64,000 nt of DNA, taken from contig CM065880.1 of the NCBI GenBank assembly GCA_033439255.1, positions 1,550,001 through 1,614,000 of the forward strand, given 5' to 3'. Below the pieces are notes generated by a model. That model did not search any database. It was not told the DNA's origin and saw only the letters and a list, made by a program, of their open reading frames with translations. Position numbers and translations under genes: made by a program. Below are positions 20,569 through 57,260 of this stretch, piece after piece. Each line of letters begins with the position of its first letter. Within the stretch, counting starts at the first letter, position 1. The DNA is from Hericium rajendrae. Its lineage: Eukaryota > Basidiomycota > Agaricomycetes > Russulales > Hericiaceae.

Positions 20569-20600
20569 GGGAAGTACTGCATGATAACGAGCAGTCCCCC
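20569..20600 (-). other. branch-site hairpin 1
   Basis: Stem AGTACTGC / GCAGT with flanking GGG/CCC, imperfect. It adjoins the branch-like word GTGCTTAC on the minus strand. Confidence 0.6.
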
Positions 20601-20840
20601 CAGTAAGCACAACAAACGATAGAATGATGAGTTTTTTTTTACTCACCTGGACTCCGTTGAACTCCAGCGAAGCCCAACATGTCCGTGTATGGCTGCGTGC
20701 AAGACGGCGAGGAAGTTTGGGGTGGGTGGTGGTAGGGCGGAGTGCACGGGAGATGGGGCATGTGAAAGGCGGCATGCGGGATGTGGGCTACGGAAGAGTC
20801 GGCATGTGGAGGTATGAGTGTCGAGGCAGCACGAAGAACG

Positions 20841-20872
20841 GGGAGTATTGCTTGTTATCGAGCAATACCCCC
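20841..20872 (-). other. branch-site hairpin 2
   Basis: Stem GTATTGCT / AGCAATAC extended by GGG/CCC after one mismatch. Next to GTGCTAAC on the minus strand. Confidence 0.75.
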
Positions 20873-21040
20873 AAGTTAGCACGGTTCAAGATGGAGAAAG
20901 AACGAAAACTTTTACTTACCTTGAAGCGAAAATGAGCTCCAACGGGCTCGTTCTCGCGGTCTGCACTGAATTCGTGGAGCTGGACAACGGGGTGCTGGAG
21001 ACGCGATGCGAGGGAATGGGTCTTGAGGTAGAATGAATGG

Positions 21041-21073
21041 GGAGAGTACTGCTCATTATCGAGCAGTACTCCC
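21041..21073 (-). other. branch-site hairpin 3
   Basis: Perfect 11-bp stem GAGTACTGCTC / GAGCAGTACTC. Next to GCACTGAC on the minus strand. Confidence 0.8.
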
Positions 21074-21250
21074 GTAGTCAGTGCAATAAACAGGGAAATT
21101 ACAGCATTTATTACTTACCTTAGAACCCTTACAAGTTCCTTCCACTTTCGAAAAACATTTGGGACCTTCAAGTCGCGAGAAATTGAGCAATAACGGTGAG
21201 AATGGGAGGTTACTAGAAGACAGCATGACTTAAAGCAGACTTACCGTGCA

Positions 21251-21463
21251 ACGAGCTTAGATCCGGCAGCCACCGGCCCGGTTGTCAATCCCTAATCGGC
21301 AATCTCCGGGACACGCGTTGTCAATGTGTCTGTCAATCAACTTCCTTAGTCTCTGCCTTTACCACCCACTTGTCCCTCCTCCCCATTTTCTCTCTCTTTC
21401 ATCGGGTTTCCTGTCGAACGTTGTGCCTCAAGATGTTATAGAGCATATTTGGAGGTTTACAAA
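21251..21463. promoter_or_regulatory. divergent core between minus and plus exon series
   Basis: Holds CGGCAATCTCCGGGACACGCG, related to the GC-rich core at 24720-24800 and 33375-33450 (GCCGGGGATTGCCGGTCGGG). It is followed on the plus side by a pyrimidine-rich leader (CTCCCCATTTTCTCTCTC) and an ATG at 21433. The arrangement matches the other divergent cores. Confidence 0.45.
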
Positions 21464-21678
21464 GTGAGTAACCTTGATTTTTTGTCATCCTCGCATACTA
21501 ACGAGGGTATTGTTCGAGTTATCGAATGATACTCTTTTATTCCTTTATTCTCTCGCATTCTATTGTCTTCCACTGCCTCTCCGTCATCGTCGCCGCTGTT
21601 GCACCTCGATACCAACTGGTGGAATCCATAGCAGGTGAGTAAATTTGTTTTTCTTGTGTCTTTTGTACTAATGAACAG
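21464..21678 (+). other. two plus-strand introns flanking a short exon
   Basis: The first intron starts at 21464 (GTGAGT), has CATACTAAC near 21501 and a hairpin at 21503-21534. The second intron, 21635-21678, has GTGAGT, TACTAAT and ACAG. The exon between has no long frame. It is the plus arm of the module whose minus arm is 20440-21250. Confidence 0.55.
21503..21534 (+). other. branch-site hairpin 4
   Basis: GTATTGTTCG pairs with CGAATGATAC through two G-T type pairs. It starts directly after CATACTAAC. Confidence 0.7.
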
Positions 21679-21835
21679 GGTTTCGTTCGTATTTACATAA
21701 CTTCTGCATCTTCCCATGTCACTCCCATCGCAGCATGGTGCGTATGGCCTCAACAACCCTACGCACCCTCCGAACCCATCGCATGTCCTCTGTACGGCAA
21801 TGCCACGTCACGCACACCTGTGCAGGCCATATAGT

Positions 21836-22045
21836 CATCAGGAAGGTTGACAACTTTCTGCTAGACCTGCGAGCAATCTGAGAGCATCTGAGAGCATCTG
21901 ATTGACCTGCAGATTTTCTGATCTTGTCTGACAAATAAATCAGACACTCTCAGATAAGATCAGAAAATTTGCAGGTCAATCAGATGCTCTCAGATGCTCT
22001 CAGATTGCTTGCAGGTCTAGCAGAAAGTTGTCAACCTTCCTGATG
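21836..22045. mobile_element. 210-bp foldback MITE
   Basis: Almost the whole element is one palindrome: each half starts CATCAGGAAGGTTGACAACT and mirrors the other with only a few differences. The ends match those at 47078-47658. Flanking dinucleotides (GT, TA) do not match, so no target duplication is claimed. It has no coding capacity. Confidence 0.85.
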
Positions 22046-23231: not shown

Positions 23232-24203
23232 CATCAGTAAACTTGAAATTGTCTGACTTGTCTGAGATTTGTCTGAAATGTATCTGATTTTGTCTAATTT
23301 TATCTGAATTTAGGTTGTCAGATAGTCAGACTACAGTCAGACATTCCTACGAGTGTGTATCGTCCAGACACTATCAGACACCATCAGATAAACTGTCCTG
23401 ACATCAGAATGATGTCTGACTATCAGATTAGAAGTCTGACATCAGAAAAGGTCTGACAGTCAGAATCAATGTCTGACAGTCAGACAGATTCTGAAATCAG
23501 ACATTTTTCTGACATCAGAAGTATTTTCTGACATTAGATATACATTGTCTGACATCAGTCAAGTCAGACACCTAGACAAACCTTCAGACTTCAGGCATTA
23601 TGTCTGGTTTCAGAAGCAGACTTATTTCAAACACAGTCAGTTCACTTTGTCAAGTCAGACACAAATCAGACACGACTATCAGCTCAGAGATCAGACTTTA
23701 TCAGACTTAAATCAGGATCAGCCAGAACTATCATTTCTGGACAGACTTCATATCATACTATTCAAAGCACTATAACCACAGCTAGACTAAGAGTATGGTA
23801 AGACATGCAGGTTAGAAACAACAAGCATACTACATAATCAAAGGCAGCAAAGAACGGGGACCTACCATTGACATGATATGAAGCACACAGTAGTCCTGCT
23901 ACATTAGGATACAAAACGCGAGAGTTACATGACACACATGATCAATATTACAAATATAAACAACACGCACATGGTCAGATGACAAGACACGGAATGCAGG
24001 GGAAGTGGTGCGGGAGATTGGATGGGAGCCGGATAGTGAAAAAAGATGATTGTTGCTGGGGAAACAAAGCAACACTCTTAGCTACAAGAGAGACAAATAA
24101 ACTGTGATTAGACTCACCTGCAAGAGTGCACTGCGTAGGGCTGATGCAGGATGACGATGGAGGAGACAGGGATGGCACAGAGGACTTAACATAGATAACA
24201 GAA

Positions 24204-24227
24204 AGTATTGTTATACGAGCAATACTC
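24204..24227 (-). other. branch-site hairpin 5
   Basis: Stem AGTATTG / CAATACT with a 10-base loop, next to GTACTAAT on the minus strand. Confidence 0.7.
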
Positions 24228-24526
24228 TCCTGATTAGTACATACGAATGACAAGAATAGACTGACGTTACTCATCTTAGAACCCTGCATGTCCTCAGCAA
24301 TTTTCATATGAGTTGGATGAGCAAGTGCACGTAAACGTGTCGATCACGTAGACGAGGTGGAGGTCGGGGGGTGAGAGCACGTTGTACGAGTCGTTGCCGT
24401 GGCAACGAGACTCGACAAGGGTATCGTCGACAGTGATATTGAGGGGATGGGAAAGGGCGAGCTCGTGGTCGCAGACACATGAGCGGGGTGTCGAAGGCGA
24501 GGGATGGTGGTCGTGGGAAGGTATAC

Positions 24527-24552
24527 GAGCATCGCTCATATGAGCGATACTC
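24527..24552 (-). other. branch-site hairpin 6
   Basis: GAGCATCGCTCAT / ATGAGCGATACTC, palindromic with one mismatch and no loop. Next to CGTGCTAAT on the minus strand. Confidence 0.8.
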
Positions 24553-24610
24553 ATTCGATTAGCACGAAAACATAAACAAGAAGGCTTAATTACTTACTTT
24601 TGATTTCCTC

Positions 24611-24936
24611 GGCACCTTTCAGAAACCCTCCTGTGGTCCTGTTCCTCAGGAAATATAGTGCTGGGGGGGATGGAGCTTAGAGAGGGAGAGGGAGGGAGAG
24701 AGGACAAGTTCAATGTCACGTTGAAGTCTACGTCGCATTGCCGGGGATGGCCGGTCGGATATTGCCGACTGGGCCGGTGGCTTGCCGGAAACACAACACG
24801 CATTCAAACATTGAAGTCGTGCTTTTCTCTTGTTCTGCTTGCTCTCCCCCCTCTCTCCTTCTCGTTTCTCCAGTTTCTGATGACTTGATGGCTGGAGGGA
24901 CGAATTAAAGGCCGAAGAGGTTTACTGGAAGCCTAG
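24611..24936. promoter_or_regulatory. divergent core of element A
   Basis: Near-duplicate of 33265-33585 in element B. It contains GC-rich GCCGGTCGG...GGGCCGGTGGCTTGCC, the word ACACAACACGC, then a pyrimidine-rich run (CTTGTTCTGCTTGCTCTCC) before the plus-strand donor at 24937. Exons run away from it on both strands, hence a divergent promoter. No clean TATA box is visible. Confidence 0.5.
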
Positions 24937-25020
24937 GTAAGTCAAAAAATCTTTCTTTTATTGCATCATTTGTTGTACTAATTCGGGGGGTACTGCTCGT
25001 TTTCGAGCAGTACTCCCCGA
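24937..25020 (+). other. plus-strand intron start with branch site and hairpin
   Basis: CTAG then GTAAGTC at 24937, TTGTACTAAT at 24974-24983, then the hairpin. Paralogous to 33586-33664. Confidence 0.65.
24984..25019 (+). other. branch-site hairpin 7
   Basis: Long stem CGGGGGGTACTGCTCG / CGAGCAGTACTCCCCG with a TTTT-containing loop. It begins one base after TACTAATT. Confidence 0.85.
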
Positions 25021-25089
25021 AAATCTCTTCAACCTCGCGGCCTCAACGTCAACCCCCACTCTCCCATCGCCACCTCTCCAACGTACCGT

Positions 25090-25460: not shown

Positions 25461-25639
25461 AGGACCACGAGAACGAGCCTGTTAGGGCTCGTTCTCGTAG
25501 TTTGCGTTCTTCCCACCAGCAGCCCCGTGTCGAGCCCAACAACAATGAGAACGAGCCGCAAGAGGCTCGTCCTCGTCTTTTCTGTGTCTCTTGTGTTCTC
25601 TGCCCCACGTACGGCCGGAGGTGCCTACTGGATGCCAAG
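25461..25639 (+). other. exon-like copy of the cargo gene hairpin repeat
   Basis: Two units of GAGAACGAGCC...GGCTCGTTCTCG separated by CCACCAGCAGCCCCGTG, closely similar to exon 6 of the cargo gene (about 9180-9360). The segment ends CCAAG and donor GTGAGT at 25640. This links the non-autonomous modules to the cargo gene. Confidence 0.65.
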
Positions 25640-25682
25640 GTGAGTAAAAAAAAGTGCTATTTTATTGTTTATTCTACTAACT

Positions 25683-25716
25683 CGGGAGTATTGCTCGTTT
25701 TCGCGCAGTACTCCCG
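25683..25716 (+). other. branch-site hairpin 8
   Basis: CGGGAGTATTGCTCG / CGCGCAGTACTCCCG, with compensations and one or two mismatches. It follows TTCTACTAACT and the donor GTGAGT at 25640. Confidence 0.8.
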
Positions 25717-25749
25717 GTTTTCTTTGCTGCCTCAGCAGCCATACCTCGC

Positions 25750-26430: not shown

Positions 26431-26639
26431 TTGCGTGCGCGATCCCGCAGGCCTCGGAGTTGCGCATTTGGCCTCCAACGGACATGCATGGCCCCGTACT
26501 GATGTGCATGGCCCCGTACTGATGTGCATGACCCTGGAAGAGTCTGCACAAATCCTATCCATGCACTTTTCAGTCTGCACTGTTTTTCATGACACTGAGT
26601 AAATTTGTATTTACCAGTCATGTATAGTACTCAGCTTAG

Positions 26640-27740: not shown

Positions 27741-27742
27741 CA

Positions 27743-31490: not shown

Positions 31491-31502
31491 ACAAGATAAA
31501 TC

Positions 31503-31532
31503 GAGAGTATCGCTCGAATGAGCGATACTCTC
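31503..31532 (-). other. branch-site hairpin 9
   Basis: Perfect 13-bp stem GAGAGTATCGCTC / GAGCGATACTCTC with a 4-base loop. On the minus strand it follows GTGCTAAC. Confidence 0.9.
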
Positions 31533-31740
31533 CGCGTTAGCACACATACACAAGACAAAGATTGTTTTTACTTACCTTGAATCCCTCTGCATGCTACCCT
31601 TCCCTTCCGGCTTTCGATTTGACGGGAGATAGAGGCGAGCGAGCGAGCGAAGAGGAGGGAGAACGGAGGAGTAGTGTTGAGGAACAGAGTCGAGACGAAC
31701 TTCGACGCGACATCGGTGCTTCAGCCACTGAACGAGCGAG
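31533..31740 (-). other. short first exon and splice donor (minus)
   Basis: On the minus strand: TTCAGTGGCTGAAGCACC at about 31734-31717, a pyrimidine-rich leader of about 130 bases, ATGCAGAGGGATTCAAG, then the donor GTAAGTAA from 31575. The same order occurs at 44679-44505, 47687-47862 and 57045-56878. Confidence 0.6.
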
Positions 31741-32000
31741 TCAAGTTTCTCGCGACGTAGCAAATCGAATAAAATCCCTATAATTACAAAACAAAATACC
31801 GTAGTGTAGAATGATAATATACATGGCTTGAATGAGCTGAGCATCTACATAATTTAGCACACAAGACCGGATAGCAGAGTCAAAGTTATCACGTCTGCCA
31901 CTTAGCCTCTGACGCGGCACTCGGCAACGCCCGGCAGCCACGATTCTCGGCTTCGCCCGGGATTCGTATATAAGGCTTGCGCGACACGCGTTACCTCTTG
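31735..32000. promoter_or_regulatory. divergent promoter core with TATA box
   Basis: About 220 bases between the minus exon and a plus-strand TATATAAGGC at 31968. The block CTCGGCAACGCCCGGCAGCC (31920-31939) is repeated at 57220-57239 and, changed, near 44870. After the TATA box comes CGCGTTACCTCTTGCTCTTAA, conserved at 44934. Confidence 0.55.
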
Positions 32001-32460
32001 CTCTTAACCCCCATCATGTCTTGCCACGTCGACGCTTCGTCATCGTCGTCCTTTGCTCACTCGGCGTCGAGGCTTGCTTGCTCGTCGCTATTACTTGCTT
32101 GTTCGTCGCTGCTATCTCTTTAAGGTAAGCTTTTATTCTCCGTCTTTTATTTCTTATGCTAATGTCTTCATTGCTTGTTAAAGTACCTTTGTATCCTTAC
32201 TAGGTAAGTAGTATTGTATCTTAACATTGATCTCTTTGAATGTCTTGTAGGTTTTCGCTTTTTTATTAGTTTGGTGAGTTTTTATATGTTATCTTTGTTA
32301 TCGTTCAATACTAATATCTTTTTTATTGATATGTTTTTGCTTTTTATTGTCATTGTAAGTTTGTTATCTTTTGTAGTTATCTAGTAGTCTCTGTAGCTAT
32401 AACAATGTTTTGTAATAAAATTGTTTGAACAATATATATTTTTTTATTTTCGATGTTTGT
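32001..32460 (+). other. plus-strand chain of short introns
   Basis: AAGGTAAGC at 32123, TTATGCTAATG at 32154, then further GGTAAG/GGTGAG donors with TACTAAT words at 32200-32350. The same chain follows the TATA box at 44905. Exons are tiny and AT-rich with no shared frame, so a non-coding spliced transcript is more likely than a protein. Confidence 0.45.
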
Positions 32461-32855: not shown

Positions 32856-32889
32856 AGAGAGTATCGCTCGATAACGAACGATACTCTCT
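32856..32889 (-). other. branch-site hairpin 10
   Basis: Perfect 11-bp outer stem AGAGAGTATCG / CGATACTCTCT. Next to ATGACTAAT on the minus strand, donor AAAGTGAGT at about 32929. Confidence 0.85.
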
Positions 32890-33178
32890 TCATTAGTCAT
32901 GAGAACAACAGAGAATAGGCAGTACTCACTTTGATACCCTCTCGTGTACTGCAGTACAGATTCTTGAGGTGCGTGCTTTTATAAGAGAACACTCAGGGAA
33001 CAGAGATGAAGGGGAACGGAGGGGGAGGGACGAATGAACGACGTGTCATGCCCCATTGCCACAGCAACGAGGTACGACGATGCAAACGCAGACGGCGTCA
33101 CTGGGGGATGGGGCTGCGGCGGGCTTGTGGAAGTGGATGTCGAAGGCAATGGGGGTGTGTTGCGAAAAAAACAAGCAT

Positions 33179-33207
33179 GAGTATCGCTCGTTGAATGAGC
33201 GATACTC
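33179..33207 (-). other. branch-site hairpin 11
   Basis: Perfect 11-bp stem GAGTATCGCTC / GAGCGATACTC. Next to GTACTAAC on the minus strand, donor AGGTAAGTG at about 33254. Confidence 0.88.
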
Positions 33208-33264
33208 GCTTTGTTAGTACGAGAAAGCAATGAGAGAAGTTCTTTTCACTTACCTCTAGGCCCT

Positions 33265-33585
33265 CGTGGCATCCATTAACCCCTCCTGACTTTCTCCCGA
33301 CTGTTGAAGATGCCTGGCGCCATGTGTGTATGGAGAGTTAGAGAGGTAGAGGACGAGTTCAACAACACGTTGAAAGTCGACGCGTATTGCCGGGGATTGC
33401 CGGTCGGGGATTGCCGACCGGGCCGGTGGCTTGCCAGAAACACAACACGCGTTCAAACGTTGAAGTCGTGCTTATCTCTTGTTTTGCTTGCTCTCCCTTT
33501 TCTCTCCTCCTCGTTTCTCTGGTTTCTGACGATCTGGAAGGTCGGAGGGACGATTTGAAGCCGGACAGGTTTACTGGTAGCTTAG
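33265..33585. promoter_or_regulatory. divergent core of element B
   Basis: Near-duplicate of the element A core, including GCCGGTCGGGGATTGCCGACC and ACACAACACGCGTTC, then a pyrimidine-rich run before the plus donor at 33586. The self-complementary GCCGGTCGGGGATTGCCGACCGGGC could itself fold. Confidence 0.5.
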
Positions 33586-33629
33586 GTAAGTCAAAAAAGC
33601 TTTTATTGCATCATCTGTTGTACTAATTC

Positions 33630-33664
33630 GGGGGGGTACTGCTTGTTTTCGAGCAGTACTCCCC
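33630..33664 (+). other. branch-site hairpin 12
   Basis: GGGGTACTGCT(T/C)G / CGAGCAGTACTCCCC after TTGTACTAATTC; donor GTAAGTC at 33586. Confidence 0.85.
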
Positions 33665-33705: not shown

Positions 33706-34106
33706 CATCAGGAACCTTCAAAACTTTCTGTTTGACCTGCGAGACATCTGACAGTGTCTGCATGACCTGCAGCAGTTGCATCAGACACATCAGATACTCT
33801 CAGACAACATCAGCTACTCTCAGCTAGCTGCAGAATATTTGACCTGAAGATTCAAAAAAGTATCAATGCAGAATGCTCACAGACTGATCAGAACTGATCA
33901 GATTTATATAAATTTTAGATATTGAAAACTTTGTTGCATCTAATGATTAGAGTTGGATGACTACTATATCTGTCAATAGTTATTGATTTCAAAATATAAA
34001 AGCTCTGATCAGAAATTGATCTCTAATTAGAGCCTGCAGCTGGATCAGGTCTTGCAGTTGATCAGACTCTGCAGGGTCCATCAGAAAGTTTTGAAGGTTC
34101 CTGATG
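33706..34106. mobile_element. 401-bp MITE with CATCAGG ends, copy 2
   Basis: Inverse copy of 1674-2074, nearly identical over its length, with ends CATCAGGAACCTTCAAAACT. Flanking dinucleotides (CT, TG) do not match, so the target duplication is lost or the end was altered. Confidence 0.88.
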
Positions 34107-35748: not shown

Positions 35749-35753
35749 CATAC

Positions 35754-36175
35754 TGTCAAGACTCGGTCGTAGACAGCAGAGAACCACCCAAGTCACCAGC
35801 GGTGATGAGAGCGAGAGAGCAGAGAGCGACTAGCAGCGCAGTGACCTGTATTGGAGGTACAGTACGGTACAGACGAAATGGACAATCTAGGGAAATAGGC
35901 GAGCGACAGGGAGCCTATAAGTACTGGGACGACAATGGGAAAAGAACAATGGACACCATAATGGGTCGAACAATAGAGTGAGAACAATGGTGGCCAAAAG
36001 GAGAACAATGGGAGGGAGAACAATAGATGTCCCAAAGGGGAACAAGGGCATGGGTGAAGGATAGCCCCAGGTCATGTGAGGAAGTGAACATGTGATGGGG
36101 CTGCTGGAGCACATGACCGACGCGATGCCTTGATGGCAGAGAAGAAGGCGGAGAGAAATGGAGCGATCCGTGACA
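35754..36175 (-). repeat. 3-prime LTR of gypsy copy 2
   Basis: TG...CA bounded on the plus strand as TGTCAAGACTCG...CCGTGACA. Nearly identical to 42417-42839. Confidence 0.95.
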
Positions 36176-39100
36176 TCACCCCCTCTCTAAGACGCACTTT
36201 CGCCTGGAGTGCGTGATGAGCATGGACGGGGTCGAGGTAGATGAGTCCACGAAGATTGGGAGCCTTGAGTGCATGCGGATGGCGGGTGTAGAAGTCGGTG
36301 ATTGCACCATGGGCATTGGAAAGGGAGGTACGTGAAAGCCACTGATTTTCCGAATCAGGGTAGCCTGCCCATTTGACGAGATATTCAATGCCGCGTTTGT
36401 TCCGGGTGAGACGAGCATCGAGGACAGACTCAACTTCGTACTCTTCCTCGCCCTCCACAAGGTCAGGTGGAGGTGCAGGGAAGTTGGGACCATGAGCATC
36501 GGTTTCCTTGTAAGGGGACAACAGGGACGTGTGGAACACCGGGTGGATACGCCAGGTGGGCGGTAGCTTCAGTCGATAAGAGACTGGGCCCAGGACGTCA
36601 GTAATTTCGAAAGGTCCCAGGCGTCGATCAGCAAGCTTAGCTTTGGGGCGCGTGGTTTTGATGTTCTTGCCATCGAGCCAGACCTTGTCACCAACCTGGA
36701 AGTGGATGGTGTCGTGCATATGGTCCTGGTTGTTGCGCTTCATGAGATCAGCAGCTGTTTGAAGGCTGGCCTGGACCTCAGTGCGAAGTTGTTCGAGGTG
36801 ACGGAAACGATCCTCGACGGCGGGTGTAGACGATGTGGGGTTAACAGTGGGGATGGCAGTGGGAATATAGCCGAGGAGCATTTCAAATGGAGCTCGGTTA
36901 GTGGCGCTGTGGATGCGGTGGTTGTGTGAGAACTCAGCATAAGGGAGCCATTGGACCCAATCATCCTGACGGTAGTTGCAGAAGGTACGAAGGAACTGCT
37001 CAAGTTCTTGATTGACGCGTTCTGACTCGCCGTCGGTCTGTGGATGATAGGCAGTGCTGAGGGAAGACTTGATACCAAGTTTGTCAAAGACGCCACGCAT
37101 GACTTTGCCTGCATACTGTGGGCCACGATCAGAGATGAGGCGTTCCCAGAGGCCGTAGTTCCGATAAATCCTGTCAAAAAGGATGTCGACTGTGCCATCA
37201 CTGGTAATGGTCTCTTTACAAGGAGTGAAGGAGACGTGCTTTGTAAAACGGTCGACGACCACATTGATGGAGTCATAGCCTTGGCATTCTGGGAGTTTGA
37301 CAATGAAGTCCGAGGTAATGTCTTGGAAGGGACGGGTAGGGATGGCATTGGGAATTGTTTCAACATGAGGGCGGTGATTTTGAACCTTGGTGGCCTGGCA
37401 GGTAGCACAGCCATCAACATAATCACGAACGAAGACGGACATACCGGGCCACCAGTAGTTGCGACTGAGGAGCTCATAGGTCTTGTAGCGTCCTGGGTGA
37501 CCAGCCATGGGGGTGTCATGATGCAGCTTGACGATGTCCCGACGAAGGTCCTTGTCAGCAGGGATGTAGACTTTGCCACGAAAGAGGATGAGGCCATCCT
37601 CGTAGTTCCATTCTTGGAGGTTCTTGACGAGGGAGCGAGGACCATTGTTCAGGATCACATCAAGGGCTTGAACAACCTCAATGTCCTTGGTCTTGGCATT
37701 GCGAATGCGCTGGCGAAGATCAGCATTGCCAATGGACTTGACAGCAGCTGGACGTGTAGCACGGATCTGGAAGTACTTGGGGTCGAGGAGGACACGATCG
37801 GAGTTGTCATCGTCCACCCCCTCTCTATGGTCAGGTCGTCTCGACATGGCATCTGGCCGGTGATGAATACCGGGTTTGTGGATCAGGGTGAAGTCGAAAC
37901 GAGTGAGGAAGAGAGCCCAGCGAGCTTGACGACGACTCAGCTTTTGGGCAGACTTGAAGTATTCCAGGTTCTTATGGTCGGTCCAAATCTCCACAGTATG
38001 GGGAGAACCTTCCAGGTAGTGGCGCCAGGCTTCGAGGGCGCGGATGATGGCCAAGAGTTCCTTGTCATAGATGTCGTAGTTGCGTTCGGGGGCGGTGAAG
38101 GCCTTGGAGATGTAAGCAACAGGGTGCCATTGCTCGTCCTCCCCGCGCTGGGATAGGATACCTCCTGTGGCATAGTCTGAGGCATCGACCTCAACCAGGT
38201 AGGGTTTGGACGGGTCAGGCATGATAAGGACTGGGGACGAGGTGAACGCAGCTTTAAGAGCCTCAAAGGCATGTTGACATTCAGTAGACCAGGCCCAAGG
38301 ATGGTCTTTCTTGGTAAGGTCAAACATGGGACGAGCGACTTTGGAGAAGTCCTGGATAAAGCGTCGATAGAAGTTGCCAAAGCCAACAAAGGACTGGACG
38401 TCCTTGACGTTACGAGGGGCAGGCCATTCAGCAATGCCTGCAACCTTGACGGGGTCCATGGCGAGCGTGTTATGGGAGACGATGAGACCGAGGAACTCAA
38501 CTGAGGGCTGCTCGAACGAGCACTTCTCTGGTTTGAGGAAGAGGTCATTGTCCTGGAGGCGTTGGAGGACCTTGCGCACAAGGTCGCGATGTTCTTCGAG
38601 GGTTTCGGTGAAAATGAGGATATCGTCCATGTAGATGACGACTTTGCCCGTATCGATGAGATCCTTGAAAAGTTCATTCATCATTCCTTGGAACGTGGCA
38701 GGGGAGTTGGTAAGACCAAAAAACATCACCAGGGGTTCAAAGAGACCGCGGTTGGTTTTGAAGGCGGCTTTCCATTCGTCGCCCTCCTTGATGCGAACGT
38801 TGTTGTAACCCCAACGAACGTCCATCTTGGAGAAGACTTTGGCACCCTTGAGCTTGTCAACGAGTTCAGAGATGAGGGGCAGGGGATATTCGTTCTTGAT
38901 GGTGCCTTTGTTGAGGGTGCGATAGTCCTGGACGGGGCGTAGTTTTCCATCTTTTTTCTTGATAAAGAAGAAGGGACTCGCCATAGGGGATTTGGAAGGA
39001 CGGATGTAGCCTTTCTTGACCTGGTCATCAAGGAATGAATCGAGGTCCTCCTGCTCAGTAGGAGCCATAGGATAGACCTTGCAGGAACGGGGTTCAAAAC

Positions 39101-40178: not shown

Positions 40179-40201
40179 GGACGACGTGACCGGGGGGCGC
40201 T

Positions 40202-41191: not shown

Positions 41192-42416
41192 GTCGTCGGG
41201 CGGCTGAACGGGGGGAGCTGAGGCGATGATCGGTTTGACGTTGACGGTGGATGTGGATATAACAGTAGTAACAGGTGGAGCAGGTGAGGGGATTGGTATC
41301 GGGGTTGGGATGCGAGGGGGTAGCGGTGAGCGGAGGACTGCGAGCCGGGTAACTCGCTCTTGCTCGCGGGCTTCTAGGACTTGGTGAGAGAGAGCGAGTT
41401 CAGGTTCAGTGATGAAAACGCTACTGGCCTGCCAAAACCACTGATCTCTTCCTTCTACTAGGTTTGGTCTCCAGCCAACGACTAGGCGTCGAGAGTTGGA
41501 ACGGTATGCGTAGTACTTCCTGGTAACGGCGTTGAAGATGATACCTGTTGGTACAAAGAGGGGTTCGGTGCGTGCGGGAGGGGAGTCGATACTAGGAGGG
41601 GCAACGGTGGGGAGTGGTGGAGTGGCTGGGTGTAGGCGGTGGTGTTCCTCTCTGGCAACGTCGAAGTCAACGAGTTCGAGGTAGGGGAAGTCTTCGCGCT
41701 CAGCGAAGTACCACTGGCGGGTGGCAGGGTCTTGGTGAGAAAAGTGGATCCGGGCGATGCCAGCAAGGGTGTAAACGTGGTAGTCCCCAAGGGACTCGAA
41801 GATCCCGAGTGGGAAGGGTGCAGTGGTCTGGAAGCGGGGGTCGGTGGAATCAATGGTGACAACCTACAGGAAGTCTGCCGCAACTGGACGACGTCCAAGG
41901 GCACGAGGGTACAAGGTGGTGGAGTACGGGGTTCTGAGGAATCGGTGGCCGAGGCGTTCTCTGGCCCACACAGGCTCAGGCGAGGGTTCTGGGGTGAAGA
42001 AACCTAGTGTGCAAAAGGGGAACGAGGTCGATGGCAGGATGCTCGCAGGGGATCCTCGGTTGGGTTGGCGACAGTGGTAGGCGATGTCCGAGGCACCAAA
42101 TGTGAATTCTTGCAAGTCGACGTCAAAAGCAACCCGAATTCGAACGTATAAGGCAATGGAGATAGCACCTGCGCGTGGTTTCCACGATCTCAATCGAAAC
42201 CAAACTCCTTCGGCTTCCCAACGCTTCACAGCACAATAGCGGAGGAGGGGAATGAGTGCACTGCCCTCGATGGTGTTGGCGATGGGGAAGGGGAGATGAG
42301 GTTGATGGAATGGATGTCGAGATACGGTGAAGATGTCGGCGGTGAAGGGTTCAAAGAAGAGAGGTATGATGGGCGATAGTAGGGAGGTGAGGCGGGTGTA
42401 TGAGAGATTGTCCAGG
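41192..42416 (-). other. leader region of gypsy copy 2
   Basis: Counterpart of 11790-13028 in copy 1. It is conserved and largely open, including a 121-codon frame at 41864-42229 (MKRWEAEGVWF). Its role is unknown. Confidence 0.5.
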
Positions 42417-44010: not shown

Positions 44011-44439
44011 CCCATGCGCACGGGTTCGTGCACTGGCACAAGCATGTGCGATCATGTGCTGGTGCTGTCGTGGGAGACCGTGCTCATGGGCAGATGGGTG
44101 TGTGGCTGGTGGCACAGTATGAGGCAGACAACACATTGTCGAGTCTCATTGCCGTGGCAACGAGACTGCTTTGCTGGGTGGGCAGGCTCTTGAGGCCATG
44201 TCCGTGGGTGCTGGGAGTGCCTGCGTGTGGTTGGTACCATGCGTGAGCTGGTGGAAGCCCCCGCGTGTTGTCGCAGCTGTGTGTGCGGGACAGGAGTGGC
44301 ATGTGTCAGCAGTGGTGCAGGCATGGGTTGTCAACGAGGTGGGGAGTGGGGAAACAGGCACGTGGAGTGCACGAGAGATGAGGCGGAGTGTCGAAGGGCA
44401 TGGAAGGTGGCGTAGAGTGGTCAAAGAACAAGTGAAAAT

Positions 44440-44468
44440 GAGTCTCGCTCGATAACTGAGCAAGACTC
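44440..44468 (-). other. branch-site hairpin 13
   Basis: GAGTCTCGCTC / GAGCAAGACTC, 11 bp with one mismatch. Next to TTTACTAAT on the minus strand. The donor has decayed (AAGATACAT at about 44514). Confidence 0.75.
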
Positions 44469-44639
44469 GAGATTAGTAAATACAATGAAAATAAAAGCTT
44501 TTTTTTTATGTATCTTGGCCCCTCTGACTCCCATAATACCCTTCTGGCTTCGAAAACAGAGCAGACGAGGACGTTGAAATGGAAAGGAGGTAAGGAGCCA
44601 TGAGGAGATATGAAGGGGAGGATGACGAGTGAAAGCAAC

Positions 44640-45120
44640 AAGTCGAGCGACGTGCCTTCGGTGCTTCAGCCACCGAACGAGCGAAGCTACGTTCCTCGAG
44701 CCACAACAAATCAAGAAAAATCACATTAATTTAGAAAAAACAGTATAGCTACAAATTGTACATATGATTTGAACTAATGAGTATAAGAAGTATCTACTAT
44801 GCATGAAGCTCACAGGGAGCCAAGTCCATTTAGTGAAGTCTGGCACCCAGTCTCGACACGACGCTCAGCAAGCACCCCGGCAACCACGAATCCCAGATCT
44901 GCCCGGGATTTGTATATAAGACTCGTGCGATGTGCGTTGCCTCTTGCTCTTTAACCCCAACTATCTCTTGCCACATCGATGCCTTCGTCGATGTCCTTTG
45001 CTCGCTTGTCATTATCTCTTGCTCACTCGTCATCATTTCTTGCTCATTCATCACCATTTCTTGCTCGTTCATTGTCATTTTTATTTATTTATTTGCTCGT
45101 TGTTGCTATATATAAGGTAA
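44640..45120. promoter_or_regulatory. divergent promoter core of the 42913 module
   Basis: Minus side: TTCGGTGGCTGAAGCACC near 44677-44660. Plus side: TATATAAGACTCGTGCG from 44912, then GCCTCTTGCTCTTTAACCCC and a TTGCTCACTCGTCATC repeat before the donor AAGGTAACT at 45117. The plus half is collinear with 31968-32125. Confidence 0.55.
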
Positions 45121-46125: not shown

Positions 46126-46329
46126 CATCTGAAAAAAATACCAATGCTATATTATGCTATATGATCTACATAGAACTCCTAGACTCATAGCAATCCTCTT
46201 TAGTTGATAGACTCTCATAGCTACAGGGTTGTCTATGGCAAGCTATATACTTTGGCAGGATAGCTGTACAGCTATCATAGCTATGAGAGCTATATCAGTT
46301 ATATCTTCTATGACTATTATTATATCATA

Positions 46330-47077
46330 TCTAGCTAATTAGAATTACTATCTAATCTATAACAACTCTAATCACTATAGAATTTAAAATATGCTATACA
46401 AATATTAAAAATATATAAAGATTTTTTAAGCTCAAAATCTTCATCATACTTCAGATCATTCAAACATCAGAAGATAGAAGAGATTTGATTCAAAAATAAT
46501 CTAATATAATACAATATAAGATAAATCTATAGACATCATTAGTAAGTTAAATCAAACATACAACAAAAGACTTACTAAGTATTAAAAAAGCGAAAATAAA
46601 GTACTACAAAACTGACACATCATCAGCATAAGTCAATAACAATCATAGAGGTACTTACTTAAAGGTAACAAAAAGTGAAAATTTATAAGTCTATAAAAGA
46701 CTACACATTAGTACCAAGAGACACTTAGAAAGGTAATACAACTTACCACTAAGAAATATGTAGAGGCAGCCAAAGAGGGAAGCCAAAGAGAGAAGATGAC
46801 AAGAGATGGTAGTGGTTGAGAGGAAAGAGGAGTCATGTGTTACGTGCACCTTATGTAGACATGACGAGCGGAGCCTGAAATATGGCTGCTGCGACCTGGC
46901 CTGGGCATTGCTGAGCACTGCAACAGACGCTAAGTCTCAGATTTCACTAACTTCAGGCTGCTGTTCAGTAGCTCAGAGCATATGAGGTATGTATTTATCT
47001 CATTCAAGCAAAATAGACGAGTGATCTCTAGCTTTCTTTTTTTTCTCTGATTTGATTTTATTTGACTTGATTTGTTA
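46330..47077 (-). other. minus-strand promoter and intron chain
   Basis: On the minus strand, TACATAAGGTGCACG (about 46858) is followed by CCTCTTTCCTCTC and CCATCTCTTGTCATC, the counterpart of the plus arm at 31968 and 44912. Then come GGTAAGTTG (about 46745), GTACTAATGTG (46715) and further GTAAGT/TACTTAGTAAG words to 46560. No frame is shared between the exons. Confidence 0.45.
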
Positions 47078-47658
47078 CATCAGGAAGGTTGACAACTTTC
47101 TGATTGACCTGATAATTTCTAACCCTACTGACAGCTTCTGATTGACCTGATCCACCTGAAAGCAATCTTGAGAAGCAAATATCTGATCAAACTTTTACAT
47201 TCAAGGAAAGACATTTATTGTCAGATATATAAGTTTTTAATCTCTAACTAATAGATATATCAAAATCTTTGATATCTAAAATTTTTGAAAATCTGAGAGT
47301 GTCTGGTTTTAAATCTGGAGGTCAAATATCAGTCAGATGGATCAGACAGTGTCAGACACCATCAGATGCTCTCAGACAGTTGCAGATAATTTTCAGATAT
47401 TTGACCTCCAGATTTGAAAAAAATCTCAGATCAGACACTCTCAGATTTAGAAAATTTCAGATATCAGAGATTTTGTTATATCTATTAGTTAGAGATTACA
47501 AACTTATATATCTGACAATAAATGTCTTTACTTAAATGTAAAAGTTTGATCAGATATTTGCCTGTTAAGATTGCTTTCAGGTGGATCAGGTCAATCAGGA
47601 GCTGTCAGTAGGGTTAGAAATTGTCAGGTCAATCAGAAAGTTGTCAACCTTCCTGATG
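47078..47658. mobile_element. 581-bp foldback MITE
   Basis: The whole element is one imperfect palindrome with arms of about 280 bases, starting CATCAGGAAGGTTGACAACT. Flanks TA (47076-47077) and TA (47659-47660). It sits between the two divergent arms of the element at 46126-49217. Ends as in 21836-22045. Confidence 0.9.
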
Positions 47659-47862
47659 TAAGTTTGAAAACATTTGAGTGCACGTGTTCGGTGGCTGAAG
47701 CACCAAAATGTGTGTTCGAAGTTCATCTCTCACTATCATCACTCTCCTCTCCCCACTCTCCTCCTTCCCTCTCTCTCTCTTACTCATTGAACCGAACATT
47801 GGAGGGAACCAGCAGGATGTCAGAGAAAATCAGCAGGACAGGGAGGGCATTGAAGGTGAGTA
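47659..47862 (+). other. short first exon and splice donor (plus)
   Basis: TTCGGTGGCTGAAGCACC at 47687-47705, a CTCTCC-rich leader, ATGTCAGAGAAAATCAGC, then AAG and GTGAGT at 47856. It matches the minus-strand counterparts at 31734, 44679 and 57045. Confidence 0.6.
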
Positions 47863-47895
47863 AAAAAATCTATATTTCATTTGTTCGTGCTAACT

Positions 47896-47927
47896 CGAGA
47901 GTATTGCTCATTCGAGCGATACTCTCG
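47896..47927 (+). other. branch-site hairpin 14
   Basis: CGAGAGTATTGCTC / GAGCGATACTCTCG, 14 bp with one T-G pair and a 4-base loop, starting 2 bases after GTGCTAAC. The next 90 bases are pyrimidine-rich, with the first CAG near 48026. Confidence 0.88.
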
Positions 47928-47989
47928 ACCTATTTTCCTGTCCCTTGCCTCTCCCATCTCTTCATCTCTCACCGCCGACTCTCATGTAT

Positions 47990-48890
47990 GGACCCGACCC
48001 CCGCATCATCACCGCCATGCCTGCAGGGGCTGGTGCTCCATCTTCAATGATCCCGACCACGTGCGCTGATGCACACACACTGTCAGATGACCTGCATGTG
48101 AGCTTGCCACCTCGCATACAGGCTTGCTTCCACTGCATGGCCCTGCTGTCTCATGCTGGCAGAGGGCCACAGTCACCTGCAGATGTCGGCATATGTGCAC
48201 AGGGATGGACACGTCAGCCAGAGCAGGCACACCAGCAGAGCACAATGATGCCATGGGACCAGTGCACCAGCATAGTGCAGCAAGCACATGTATGCACACA
48301 CACCACGCATGGTCATGCGCAGATGTCCCACAGCCCGACACCATGCCGCATGTCTACGGGCCCTCCACCCCCCAACGCCTTGCAGTGTACGCCTCATGTA
48401 CAGGCCTGTGGCAGCCCAGCCAGCACATGCATCCATGCACACTGTACATGGTCGTGCGCAGGTGCCCCGCCACCAACACCTCATGTGCAAGCCTACTACC
48501 TCCTGACACTTTGCATGGCGCACCTCATGTACAGGCCCACAGCAGCCCAGCACCCTGCGCATGGACCATCATGTGCCCTACTCATCCGCTATGCCTCACA
48601 CACAGACCCGCCTCCCATCTCGGTGCCTTGTGCCCCCAGCGCCTCAATCACACGCCGCATGCCTCATATACGGGCCCGCAGCACTCAGCGCCTTATGCAC
48701 GGCCCTCACACCTTGCACTGCTCTCTCATGTGCAGTCGTTGCACCTTGCTTGCAGGTTTGCTACATTGCGTACATGCCCCGCATCCATGCGCTTACAGGC
48801 CTGGGCACTCCAGTGTACGAACAGCTGCATCCATCCGAGCACGTGCATGCTGAGGTGTGGTGCCATTGCTGGGATGTGGAGGCTCTTATG
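47990..48890. repeat. minisatellite (ATGCACACTGTACATGGTCG type)
   Basis: Degenerate 30-60 base units around GCATG and CATGTACAGGCC. Open on the plus strand for about 300 codons, but the text is His/Pro/Ala/Cys-rich and repetitive; not called as a gene. Confidence 0.65.
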
Positions 48891-49217
48891 TATTAATACA
48901 GTACTTGTAGTATAGTCAATTGTAGTAGATAATTAATGAATATAATTAGTTTTGATTGAGAATCTTTAGTAGCTAGCTGACTTACATAGTAATAATAGTA
49001 GCCATAGCTTAACCTTGGTAAGTATGGTAGTGCTATATATTTTACACTGCTGATTATGAAGGCTATGATAATACTATGTACCTGGTATTACTAGCTATGA
49101 GAGCTATCATAGCTATCATAGCCCTCCATAGCTAGGTAGAAAAACTTCATAGCTTTCATAGCTCAATGATAGCACACATATTTTGAGCTGTAGCTATACA
49201 ATTTTTTTTTTCAGATG
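48891..49217. repeat. right AGCTATG subterminal tract
   Basis: AGCTATCATAGCTATCATAGC words up to the terminal TTTTTTTTTCAGATG. Confidence 0.65.
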
Positions 49218-49671: not shown

Positions 49672-50461
49672 TCACTGTCTCCAATGATCCTCTACATCAT
49701 CCATCCAAGCCACCTTCATAACATCTGAGTCAAGGACAAACCCTAAGAGACTCCACTCTCCGAGGCATAGCAGAGCACGGATAGTTTGCGGGGATAGTCT
49801 GTTGCGAAGATGAGGTATCAGAATTCTGCCATGGCTAAAGAGCCATTCTACAGCCACAGACGTTGCTAGTGTGGCAAGTAAAGAATTAATGGAGGTGTCG
49901 AGCCATGCACTGAAGGATCAGATACTTACCTGGTATCGTCAGGTAGTCGACAGCCATGCAGTACAGACAAGGATAGAGGGATTTATGGGTCTTCCACCAT
50001 ACAATCGGGTCAGAAACATTCTCAACTGCAGCATTGAGATAACGAGCAAGTTCATCCTGTGGTGCACGTGCGGGTCCGGAGATTGAAGGCATGTTGTCGA
50101 ACATGTTCTGCGATGGCTGACAGAGTGTCCAGCACCAAATATTGAGTACTGATAAGGTATAATCGAGGCTGAAACGCACCTTAGCTGGCCCCTCAGCCTT
50201 CTTGATCTCATCTGCTTCAATTTCCACCAAAGCGTAGGAGCTTTCCCAACCATCGCGAACTAATTGCCGTGCGGTCTCGATCCATTCGGGCTCCCAGTCG
50301 TGGTCGTGGAAGTACTTCAGTTTGTATGCCAGATGATGAACTGTGGAGATGGTCAAGTCAGTATACAATACAGAAAAGGTCCAAACGTGCTCACCCATTG
50401 CAATACGATAGACATGAGAATCGTCCGTGAGATTGTAGTAACAGTTCAGCGTGCACTTCAC
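49672..50461 (-). pseudogene. hAT transposase, C-terminal exons
   Basis: Three exons: 50461-50395, 50340-49930 and 49865-49672, joined over introns of 54 and 64 bp (GTGAGC...CACAG, GTAAGT...ACTAG). The text runs LNCYYNLTDDSHVYRIAMVHHLAYKLKYF, then W..EWIETA, DELARYLNAAVENV, DPIVWWKTH, DYLTIP, ATSVAVEWLFSHGR, and ends DVEDHWRQ. This is the hAT C-terminal dimerisation region. About 500 residues that should precede it (zinc finger and catalytic core) are not in the window, so the piece cannot be functional. Confidence 0.85.
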
Positions 50462-50779
50462 GACACTTAACGAGGCACATATGGCAATACTATACTAGGG
50501 ATGGACACGAGTCAGAGTCACCTGTGGGTCAATACAGGTATACCTGTGAAATTTACCCACGGGTTCCTGACCCACAGATCTGGATCACCCGGTGGCACAA
50601 ACCTGTCCGGATCCAGGTCAAAGTGTTACTGAAATGCATTGACCCGCAAGTTACCTGCAAGTTACCTGTTGTATTGTATTTATTTACCAGTTTTATATTA
50701 TCACTATAATATGTACATTATGTAGCATTATAATTTATTATATCCAAGCATTACTATTACAACAAATCCTACAGTAACT

Positions 50780-51500: not shown

Positions 51501-51546
51501 TCCGCGGGCAGCCGAAGCCACAGGCGGGTCTGTTGAGGCTGTGTGC

Positions 51547-53929: not shown

Positions 53930-55084
53930 ATGATGCCATCAGCATTCATGCCAATGCGTGGAGAGAGCGGTGCTCCCAGCTTTGTCAGAGACGATCCCCG
54001 TGAACTCGGACCATATTTTGCAGATCTGGAGTTTTGTTTTCAGCGCTTTCAGGTCCAGGATGATCTGGAGAAGAAGGCTCATGCGGTCCGGCTTTTGTCT
54101 GAGTTAGATGCCCAGGAGCTCTGGCAGTCTGAACCAAGTTTTGGCACAGGCACTTGGAACAAGTTCAAGGCTGCGATCCAGAAGTTGTATCCAGGTTCTG
54201 AAGCAGGAGGCCTTTGGTCCAGGCAGGATTTGGTGGCTCTCGCTCGAAGGACGCTTCAGGCGAACTTGTCCTCCTTAGGCGAACTTGGTGCATTTCTTCG
54301 CCGATTTTTGGTCATCTCACGTTGCCTGAAGCACCAGGGACGTCTCTCTGCTTTCGAGGAGCAGCATTTCTTCCTCTCAGCGCTTCCTGATCGACTCTGC
54401 CACCAGATTGAGGCCTATCTCACCCAGAGGCACCCAGACCACCATCCAGACGAGCCCTACCCCATTATCGACATCTATCACGCTGCTAAGCGCATTCTGC
54501 ATGGTACCAGCATCACATTTGGCCCTCATACAAGCTGTAATGATCCAGTTGCTGACGTTTTGGTGAGTTCGCCACCAGCGGTCTTGGGTTCTGCCACCAC
54601 AATCACTATCAAAAGCGAGCATGTACCCTCATTAGCAAATCTCCTGCTTAGGACGGTCCAGCCACCGACATTTTCACCTCCTGTCCAGCCAGCGACCTCC
54701 TGTATGCCTTCGACGACCTTCAGACAGCCTCGGCGTATTCGGACTGCCCCTGGGCATTGCAGCTTCTGTGGGGCCCATGGTCACTTCCTTCGTCAGTGCG
54801 CAGCAGTTCAGACGTACCTGAAGGCTGGCAAGTGCAAGTTCAACGCCAGAGGCGAGATCACTTTACCTTCTGGGGCCTGGCTACCTCAAGGTGTCCCAGG
54901 TGATCCCATTGCTGTTCGTCTCGACCAGTTCTATCAGTGCACCCCATCCTGGCATGCCCCAGACCAGTCTTCGCCCAGCACCATCGCTCAAACTGCTCCC
55001 TTTGTCCACCAAATGCCTGCTCCGCACAAGCCTGCCCACAGCGACCTTCCTTCGACCGCAGATCAAGTGTCATTTGATGATTGA
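53930..55084 (+). CDS. gag-like protein of gag-only element
   Basis: 384 residues from MMPSAFMPMRGESGAP. The frame is open 66 codons further upstream, but that part is the low-complexity leader, so the double ATG at 53930 is preferred. A capsid-like region (YFADLEFCFQRFQVQDD, ALPDRL) is followed by a CCHC knuckle (CSFCGAHGHFLRQC). The frame is open throughout. Confidence 0.85.
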   Translation: MMPSAFMPMRGESGAPSFVRDDPRELGPYFADLEFCFQRFQVQDDLEKKAHAVRLLSELDAQELWQSEPSFGTGTWNKFKAAIQKLYPGSEAGGLWSRQDLVALARRTLQANLSSLGELGAFLRRFLVISRCLKHQGRLSAFEEQHFFLSALPDRLCHQIEAYLTQRHPDHHPDEPYPIIDIYHAAKRILHGTSITFGPHTSCNDPVADVLVSSPPAVLGSATTITIKSEHVPSLANLLLRTVQPPTFSPPVQPATSCMPSTTFRQPRRIRTAPGHCSFCGAHGHFLRQCAAVQTYLKAGKCKFNARGEITLPSGAWLPQGVPGDPIAVRLDQFYQCTPSWHAPDQSSPSTIAQTAPFVHQMPAPHKPAHSDLPSTADQVSFDD

Positions 55085-55930
55085 GTCTATCTCCTAAGGC
55101 GTGGCCTCTCCATCTCGATGACAATCCAGTCTTGCAGACATCAGCTTGCTCAGCTCTATCAGATGCAACTTGACTTCACCACCTACCATGCTCGAGGCGA
55201 ACTTGCTCAGCTCCATGAGCCAGCAGTGATGCCAGCCCATATGTCGAGCTCATCCTTCATCGATCATCATGTGTCATCATCTAGGAGGCCTCTCCTGTCG
55301 TCCAGAGACCAATGCGAGCAGTTAGAGACTCAAGTTCACTCTGCGCTCAACATCGCCCAAAGCGAACCACCGGCGAACTTGTTTCTATTGGACTTAGAGA
55401 AGCACCAAGTCTCGAGCAGCTCATCTACCCTTCCTTCTACCGTCTCTACCGATGCAGAGTTTCTTTCTCAATGCACAGACCTGCAGGTGGATCACCAGGG
55501 TGTCTCAAAATCTGATCTCAACCCAGGAGTCCTTGTTGGTGGCTCTGAACCCACTCCAAGCTTGCCTATGGCGTCCAAGCCTATACCTGCCGACTGTCGA
55601 CCTCCGTTTTCCATCACTCCACCACTTTCAGTGTCATTTATCCAGTCGCTTTCCAGATCCGAGTCAAGTTCGCTCAGGGCACCCTTAGTCGATGACAGTG
55701 ATATCATTTTCTGTGACCATCTCGCTTTCCATCAGAACCCACCAGCAGTGATCCCAGATCGTCCTCCTCTACCACGATGCATTCCCACTTGATCGTTGTC
55801 ACCACCTCCACTCTCCTTCGCAGCTATAGTGAGAACACCGCTCGAAGCGTATTTGGTGTCTAGCGTCCGAATCCCTTGTGGGGCTCATTGGTTAGACTGA
55901 GGACAGTCTATTTTTTAGTTGGGGGGAGAA
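55085..55930 (+). other. 3-prime internal region of gag-only element
   Basis: A 224-codon frame at 55118-55792 (MTIQSCRHQLAQLYQ) shows no RT, RNase H or integrase motif. It may be a second small protein or a chance frame in low-complexity text. Confidence 0.4.
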
Positions 55931-56752
55931 TGATACGCCTCAAGCTGTGTTCAGCAATGTCAGACCTCATCTCACCATCTCCCATGCAGTTCCCCTTCAC
56001 TCCCATCCAGCTTCCAGCTCCTCACCCACCAACCCCGCTCAGAGCGGTGATGTCCCTCATCTCAGGAGTTGTCAGCTACTGCAGGCCTCACCAAGGTTTC
56101 CTCAAGTTCGCTCCAGGTCGTCCTCAGCGGTTTTGGTGAGCCAATCAGGCTGCTGGCATTATGGTACCGGGTCTGTGTTGTACAGGATGCCTGGATGCCG
56201 CCTTTCGATGGTTTCGGACCATAGATGTACCATAGAGCAGCCGAGTCCGAGATCGCCCGAGACCGCCAAGGGCGAGTTTCCTACTTGTATGGTAGACAGA
56301 GTCCCAGCTTCGAATAGAACCCTCCAGTGCACCTTTCCCCCTCAGAGCTCAGACCTCAGAAGTCTCTCTCACTGTTGTTCTCATCGTTCTCTGGACTTTA
56401 GACAAGTCCGCCCTCCTTTAGGCCAGTCTGCCCGCAGCGTCGTTCGTCAGATTCAGTCATATCAGCCGCTTTTCAGTCCTTTTCTCTAGGATTAGTCCGT
56501 CGTATCAGAGACCCGTGTGTCTCGTCATTCTCCTTGTCATTCTACAGTCGTTCCTCATCCTTCCCAGCTGCTTATCACCAGATCACCTCAGACTCGCCCT
56601 TAGCGAACCGGTCGCTCCATCGTTCCTGCTGCAGTGACCCTCAGCTGCCCTCACCTCACTCCTCACTTGAGATACTTGGTCCCCTCGCACCCCCCGGTAC
56701 TCTGTTGGTTTTGGTTTTGGCTGCCGCCTCCATTCCCAGGGTCCACACATCA
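55931..56752 (+). repeat. right LTR of gag-only element
   Basis: 822 bases, same ends as the left LTR; about eleven transitions separate them. Confidence 0.9.
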
Positions 56753-57260
56753 GCGCGCGCACAGGTTGTGCACACATTTCCGATGCGTGGATGGGGGTGC
56801 TGAAAAAACGAGTGTCGCTCGAAACACGAGCGACACCCTTGATTAGTACAAAAACGTGATAAGAAACTCGTTTTTTTACTCACCTTAAGCCCATTCTCCT
56901 GCTGCTAATCCACCGCGGCCGTGTTGAAAGTTGACGGAGAACGAAAAAAATGGGAGGGAGAGAGGAAACAGAGAGGAGAAGGAGGGAGGGTGAGTGAGAA
57001 GGAGTAAGTCTCGACGCGTCAACTCGGGGCTTCAGCCACCGAATGTGCAAAGAGACAAAACAAAACGAATAAAATAGCAAAAAATACACAAGAAAGACAG
57101 GAGCTATATATGATGTATATACATAGAATACATGAGCCAGTTCTGTAATAAATGTACAGTATATCACTTAGGTAGCAGGGTTAAGATAACAAAATCTAAT
57201 ACTTAGTCTCTGGCGCGGCGCTCGGCAACGCCCGGCAGCCACGATTCTCCTGCAGTGTGC
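56753..57260 (-). other. truncated hairpin-intron module
   Basis: On the minus strand: CGGCAACGCCCGGCAGCC core (57239-57220), TTCGGTGGCTGAAGCCCCG (57045-57027), CTCTCCTCC-rich leader, ATGGGCTTAAG, donor GTGAGTAA (56883), GTACTAAT, hairpin, then the start of a minisatellite. The plus arm of the module is missing beyond about 57250. It is the fourth copy of the core described at 31735. Confidence 0.65.
56812..56836 (-). other. branch-site hairpin 15
   Basis: Perfect 10-bp stem GTGTCGCTCG / CGAGCGACAC. Sequence differs from the other stems at paired positions. Next to GTACTAAT on the minus strand. Confidence 0.88.

Follow-up and report, generated by a model that had tools for sequence, protein, structure and literature searches.

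A stretch of 64,000 nucleotides (nt) from the basidiomycete Hericium rajendrae (GenBank assembly GCA_033439255.1, contig CM065880.1, positions 1,550,001 to 1,614,000 of the forward strand), here called the window, contains fifteen dispersed palindromic stems, each lying directly behind the branch site of an apparent intron. The stems had been listed in an earlier note made from the letters of the window, and all fifteen were found; on alignment they share one order on the donor strand, in which the exon end is followed by the donor, after about 33 nt by the branch word, and then by the stem. The donor word GTRAGT claimed in that note holds generally and fails in the copies at 24204 (ATGAGT) and 44440 (ATACAT), while the claimed branch words, also generally present, are degenerate at 20569 (TGCTTAC), 21041 (CACTGAC) and 32856 (GACTAAT). 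The modules of the window, with one further donor-branch pair, are the following.

20569..20651, minus strand: hairpin module with exon end, donor GTGAGT, degenerate branch word TGCTTAC and stem; the last in a series of three on this strand
20840..20924, minus strand: hairpin module with GTAAGT, TGCTAAC and stem GGGGTATTGCT/AGCAATACTCC
21041..21123, minus strand: hairpin module with GTAAGT, CACTGAC and stem GGGAGTACTGCTCG
21459..21537, plus strand: hairpin module with GTGAGT, TACTAAC and stem GAGGGTATTGTTCGA
21635..21700, plus strand: second donor-branch pair, lying downstream of the 21459 module; its stem is degenerate, with 7 of 11 pairs
24200..24279, minus strand: hairpin module with decayed donor ATGAGT
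24524..24602, minus strand: hairpin module, divergent from the 24932 module
24932..25018, plus strand: hairpin module with stem TTCGGGGGGTACTGCTCG
25635..25716, plus strand: hairpin module on the same strand as the 24932 module and downstream of it
31502..31580, minus strand: hairpin module, GAGAGTATCGCTC
32856..32934, minus strand: hairpin module with degenerate branch word GACTAAT
33176..33258, minus strand: hairpin module, divergent from the 33581 module
33581..33664, plus strand: hairpin module related to the 24932 module
44437..44518, minus strand: hairpin module with lost donor ATACAT and stem GAGTCTTGCTC
47851..47927, plus strand: hairpin module within the complete element 46126-49217
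56807..56888, minus strand: hairpin module with stem GGGTGTCGCTCG

A scan blind to the stem sequence recovered 11 complete units in the window. In a second scan of this kind a hairpin followed 10 of the 15 donor-branch pairs of the window, as against 0 of 15 after shuffling, and only 2 of the 35 branch words that lack a donor; both of these are copies from the earlier list, 24204 and 44440, in which the donor has decayed. At the genomic loci described below, 19 of 36 units carried a hairpin; eight centres chosen by the search patterns had been removed from the original 44, and a few of the remainder are also pattern matches, so that the window count alone is fully independent of those patterns. 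Modules can stand in series, with five in locus L007, four in L003 and three in the window at 20569-21123, and each serial module has its own purine-rich exon end, donor, branch site, hairpin and C/T-rich, AG-poor spacer. In L014 and L037 the module comes after an apparent ordinary intron with a TTTGCAG or TTCGCAG acceptor. A protein-coding second exon was considered and rejected, since no frame was consistent among the six loci read and several were open in more than one frame. No Rfam family reached its gathering score in the window.

Genome-wide family and covariation of the stem

Search patterns made up of the branch word and the 5' arm, with the 3' arm left out, matched the 46.8-megabase genome (19 contigs) 279 times with TACTAAY and 219 times with TGCTAAY, whereas the same patterns read backwards gave 3 + 1 = 4 matches; with 498 matches, the family is larger than the earlier note had claimed. 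Both branch words presumably match the word that pairs with U2. The 67 loci studied are the first places listed in contig order, mainly on contigs C1-C7 and C12, and some are near-identical copies (L007/L008 and L032/L033). Counting G·U as a pair, 63 of them have all 11 complementary core bases, two have 10, one has 9 and one (L045) has 6, and this last locus was rejected as a chance match. As the 3' arm lay outside the pattern, this count tests pairing fairly. With further loci and the units of the window added, 142 units were assembled, of which 123 are distinct: 111 have 11 pairs, 6 have 10, 3 have 9 and 3 have fewer. A stem of at least 6 base pairs (bp) thus lies directly 3' of the branch site, at least 9 of the 11 core pairs being kept in 120 of the 123 distinct units, and the donor is in place in 114 of the 123. 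The three units with fewer than nine pairs (the chance match L045 and two that represent the degenerate second intron) were dropped, as was one with less than 150 nt of downstream sequence; the resulting 119 units fall into 29 clusters at 72% identity. Viral contigs held no match to one exact stem type, and plasmids none to one stretch of L010.

The placement of the stem is tight. From branch word to stem core the linker measures 5 nt in 23 of the 29 clusters and 2-4 nt in the other six, whereas the loop varies between 3 and 11 nt and, in the 26 clusters with a recognised donor, the distance from donor to branch varies between 32 and 40 nt. Folding prediction gave a mean stem pair probability above 0.9 in 112 of the 119 units, with a median energy of -24.4 kcal/mol.

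Covariation was assessed on a 14-pair stem in 62 distinct sequences; three of 65 stretches were left out, namely L020 (9 of 11 pairs) and two units of L001, one of which forms a perfect stem of other sequence. In this alignment 95.4% of cells are paired, compared with at most 48.8% in slid versions, and 84 cells are changed on both sides, compared with 26.5 ± 4.1 in shuffles. The claim in the earlier note that at least two columns change on both sides together is borne out, as 8 of the 14 pairs do so. The shuffles ignore kinship, which is taken in by a count on a quick tree built only from 170 nt of flank (exon end and donor-branch stretch): four core pairs require at least 19 changes between Watson-Crick types, and the two pairs outside the core at least 15, although errors in this tree or gene conversion would inflate the count. 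With two-sided cells far above both kinds of control and at least 19 two-sided core changes on the flank tree, the stem is evidently under selection, as that note had proposed.

The earlier note had left it between folded RNA and folded DNA, and the half-changed pairs favour the former. Five core positions admit either kind under the search pattern, and on the donor strand these show 30 units with G·U as against 4 with A·C (23 against 4 when counted per cluster and position). Pair 2 alone has 11 G·U and 0 A·C; provided that the common A-U pair is ancestral, this change is A to G and therefore not cytosine decay. The three outer pairs show G·U 34 times against 10 for A·C (17 against 8 by cluster), and pair 11 has 3 C·A, its 5' letter being fixed as C by the pattern. 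Such an excess of G·U over A·C on the donor strand indicates that the selected form is donor-strand RNA, rather than DNA or antisense RNA. Selection of the stem as donor-strand RNA is well supported.

The acceptor stretch beyond the branch site

In predicted introns of host genes of the actin and tubulin type, the acceptor lies 10-19 nt past the branch in 9 of 14 cases, though some of the 14 are doubtful and three of the seven stretches examined gave no reading. A similar arrangement is seen in donor-branch pairs that lack the hairpin, 17 of 22 having a YAG 10-30 nt past the branch, mostly at 16-21 nt; 16 of these 22 pairs belong to loci in which all hairpins are on the opposite strand. Among donor-branch pairs with a hairpin, only 18 of 116 have a YAG at this distance, and of these 17 lie within the 3' arm and one (L068) in the loop, so that an ordinary YAG outside the stem arms is present in 1 of 116 units and absent in 115. 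The hairpin and an ordinary acceptor are mutually exclusive. The stem therefore sits in the acceptor window with no accessible acceptor nearby, which is consistent with the suggestion of the earlier note that it hides the acceptor AG, the hiding itself being something we infer.

That note had also pointed to an AG far downstream. Past the stem, the first AG comes at a median of 63 nt (range 5-259 nt; 29 clusters), and AG is scarce relative to GA at 0-60 nt (24:61) and not at 180-240 nt (53:40). Some subfamilies have a conserved AG, mostly YAG, at a homologous spot 74-148 nt after the stem. The word GCCAYGTYRYBAG occurs in 14 of the 119 units, two of them with GAG (L039 and L052), and CCYGCAG|G is common to L051, L059, L066, L099 and the window copy 47896. 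Judged by these words, part of the family may plausibly use a distant acceptor; for the other units this is unproven.

Carrier transposons and their surroundings

The modules are carried by DNA transposons. L010 and its relatives are 2.6-2.8 kilobases (kb) long, with ends CATCAGATAAAT..ATTTTTCTGATG, AT-rich outer parts and apparently two divergent transcription units, and the hairpin of L010 has about 1.27 kb of element on one side and 1.4 kb on the other. A search by end pattern of the collected loci and the window found 14 elements with CATC(A/T)GA..TC(A/T)GATG ends, among them 46126-49217 of the window and some reading CATCT..AGATG, and equal 2-bp flanks, taken as target duplications, border 13 of the 14. 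PlavakaB DNA transposons are described as having CATCA..TGATG termini and target duplications of 2 or 3 bp (PMC12730594); the carriers share these ends, in part as CATCT..AGATG, and the 2-bp duplications. The Plavaka transposase family has at least 132 matches in the genome, with gene pieces counted apart and 123 of 166 candidates scored, yet none of the 14 carriers overlaps any of the matches so scored, and the carriers also differ in their apparently two divergent non-coding units. We therefore class them as probable transposase-less elements whose ends are of PlavakaB type, and do not count them as Plavaka itself. A Helitron 3' hairpin was rejected, because the stem lies in mid-element and target duplications are present. 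Two features of the window belong here.

4335..6907, minus strand: Plavaka transposase gene pieces, with PF18759 in two of three
46126..49217, plus strand: whole carrier element with ends CATCTGAAAA..TTTTCAGATG and matching 2-bp flanks GC

Three open frames of the 46126-49217 element match no Pfam family. The pieces at 4335..6907 are a possible source of transposase for the carriers, and the best relatives of a transposase piece of the window are agaricomycete proteins.

Several other sequences recur in these elements. Upstream of the module, TTCGGTGGCTGAAGCACCGAA is present in whole or in part in most of 23 aligned loci (L010 1320-1350, oriented) and in the window at 31715, 44660 and 57030; it may be a promoter or 5'-end element. 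A divergent unit with a TATATAAG box and ordinary-looking introns is seen in L010 at 1000-1100 (oriented) and in the window at 31960-32060 and 44900-45000, and that of L010 contains the palindrome CACGTCGACG..CGTCGACGTG. A third palindrome type, GTCTCRTTGCCRYGGCAACGAGAC, lies in the window at 24388-24417 and 44141-44165 and recurs in the same elements, being found downstream of the hairpin in L017, L050, L056, L064, L098 and L102, often about 100 nt after it. Another recurrent palindrome, GAGAACGAGCC..GGCTCGTTCTC, occurs near modules (window 25480-25580), and the frame 8834-9781 consists of repeats of ENEP(Q/V)EARSR, that is, the letters of this palindrome in translation. Short elements with long inverted ends CATCAGGAA..TTCCTGATG, whose terminal letters are the same as those of the carriers, are located at 21836-22045, 33706-34106 and 47078-47658, one of them nested in 46126-49217. 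The window also contains two Gypsy-type retrotransposon coding regions that resemble each other and point in opposite directions, one split over several frames (12333-18146) and one with a single long frame (36072-41863), and a piece with a hAT dimerisation domain (PF05699) at 49886-50494.

A possible role at the second step of splicing

The carriers are best seen as transposons that bear a non-coding unit of one to several modules. In each module a purine-rich exon end leads into a strong donor; about 33 nt further on there is a near-perfect branch word and, usually 5 nt after it, a stable RNA hairpin. This hairpin fills the stretch in which introns of this genome usually have their acceptor, and the AGs there would be buried. 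If the unit is transcribed, the spliceosome may be recruited and make the first cut, and exon ligation would then be held back until an AG beyond the hairpin and the C/T-rich, AG-poor tract is reached; alternatively, splicing may be given up after step one. We give about an even chance to the view that, next to a strong branch site, the acceptor window is masked by the hairpin, with the result that the exons are joined late, are joined at a distant AG or, splicing having been aborted after the first step, are not joined at all. The observation made in the earlier note is confirmed and its interpretation partly supported.

Several results tell against this explanation. An AG-free stem would hide AGs equally well, yet an AG is kept 4-9 nt past the branch in 27 of the 29 clusters. 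Relative to shuffling, AG is depleted to 0.59 at 0-60 nt after the stem, yet also to 0.65 at 120-180 nt; this depletion is only partly local and no more than suggestive. The first AG after the stem shows no enrichment of YAG (17 of 29, compared with 158 of 279 later AGs). Of the five covariation measures, two exceed the shuffles by a moderate margin only: the eight pairs with two-sided change compare with 6.5, and 38 of 500 shuffles reach eight, while the 25 pair types compare with 22.9, and 32 of 500 shuffles reach 25. Folding also predicts a fair degree of pairing for the donor hexamer (median 0.74) and partial pairing for the branch A (median 0.33), which does not favour recruitment of the spliceosome.

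The stem might instead be an RNA signal for a protein, whether a host or element factor, RNase III or another double-strand binder, its place behind the branch having to do with how the lariat tail is released, degraded or protected and not with the choice of acceptor. The stability of the stem would suit such a signal, as would the constancy of pairs 1-4, 8, 10 and 11, which are without two-sided change among the 119 units and are more constant than the stem middle. However, the constancy of several 5'-arm positions was imposed by the search patterns, and stems found free of the patterns do vary there (L014 and L037 at pairs 10-11, L001 throughout); the loop varies in length and sequence, and the missing acceptor is left unexplained. 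We consider this rather unlikely. An AG within the stem could also be the acceptor itself, with the hairpin as a switch, responsive to temperature or a factor, that closes and opens a short ordinary intron of about 45-50 nt. Besides the AG near the branch, 17 of 116 units have a CAG in the 3' arm, 28-30 nt past the branch, and the resulting intron lengths suit a fungal intron. Yet the AG of the 5' arm reads GAG, a poor acceptor, and two clusters have no AG in that arm; the AG also falls short of the branch-acceptor distance of the host introns, and the stem is predicted closed in almost all units, all of which makes a switch improbable.

That the palindrome acts as DNA, as a dimer binding site or cruciform, the intron-like words being a coincidence of common descent, might be thought from its inverted-repeat form and from the further palindromes in the same elements. 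DNA predicts equal numbers of the two kinds of half-changed pair, whereas G·U prevails on the donor strand, and the hairpins follow donor-branch pairs and hardly ever lone branch words, the two exceptions being former pairs; this reading is very improbable. Even less credible is the absence of selection, with the stems as recent copies or gene conversions of one palindromic unit. Copies within a subfamily are indeed close in sequence, and conversion between copies could carry whole stems and inflate the tree count, but between subfamilies the flanks have diverged to poor alignment and pairing persists through several stem types, and the present counts of changes already disfavour it.

RNA structures past the branch site that control the use of the acceptor are known from yeasts. 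In Schizosaccharomyces pombe, rap1 intron 2 has a fold between branch and acceptor that affects its splicing, which complementary mutations rescue, and Sde2 and Cactin help the use of distant acceptors (PMC9508853); Cactin and Sde2 domains are also encoded in the present genome. In Saccharomyces cerevisiae, where RPS23B is an example, stems between branch and acceptor are known that also cover cryptic acceptors (PMC12350175). These introns likewise have the stem just past the branch, shortening the effective distance or blocking a cryptic AG, but in them a defined acceptor follows, whereas the present stem, of a single covarying type, recurs in hundreds of transposon copies that have no ordinary acceptor. 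The TER1 telomerase RNA of S. pombe is reported to be released after step one by a strong branch site and a distant acceptor (PMC4299874). The modules have both of these traits, a likeness that does not extend to a telomerase RNA, an Sm site or a released 5' exon, and the branch words TACTAAY and TGCTAAY were preset by the search patterns; unlike the modules, that system is described without the word hairpin in the main text of the paper. In Cryptococcus neoformans, spliceosomes stalled on transcripts trigger small interfering RNAs (cited in PMC6643885). Genes for RNA-dependent RNA polymerase (RdRP) are present in H. rajendrae, and a reading of stalled spliceosomes in terms of RNA silencing is therefore possible. 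We know of no hairpin module in the C. neoformans system. In introner elements the element itself is an intron in host genes; the carriers are 2.6-3.1 kb long with the module in the middle. No comparable module was found in the literature searched, which largely excluded subscription papers. While stems between branch point and acceptor are thus already known in yeasts, a transposon-borne, branch-anchored and covarying family without an acceptor appears to be a new form of them.

If ligation is indeed blocked, it is possible, as we tentatively suggest, that the carriers spread mobile modules for the first step of splicing only, each with a strong donor, a strong branch site and a ligation-blocking hairpin and sometimes five in a row; the spliceosome would then be used as a cutter that forms the 3' ends of the element RNA, or spliceosomes would be held so as to feed or escape RNA silencing. 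Conserved structure between branch and acceptor has so far been examined mostly in individual introns. The present family offers about 500 natural copies that differ by many compensatory changes and stand beside ordinary introns of the same elements. It is a ready-made experiment on the way in which RNA structure links the two steps of splicing or separates them, and its carriers also bear on the question of whether transposons exploit such structure.

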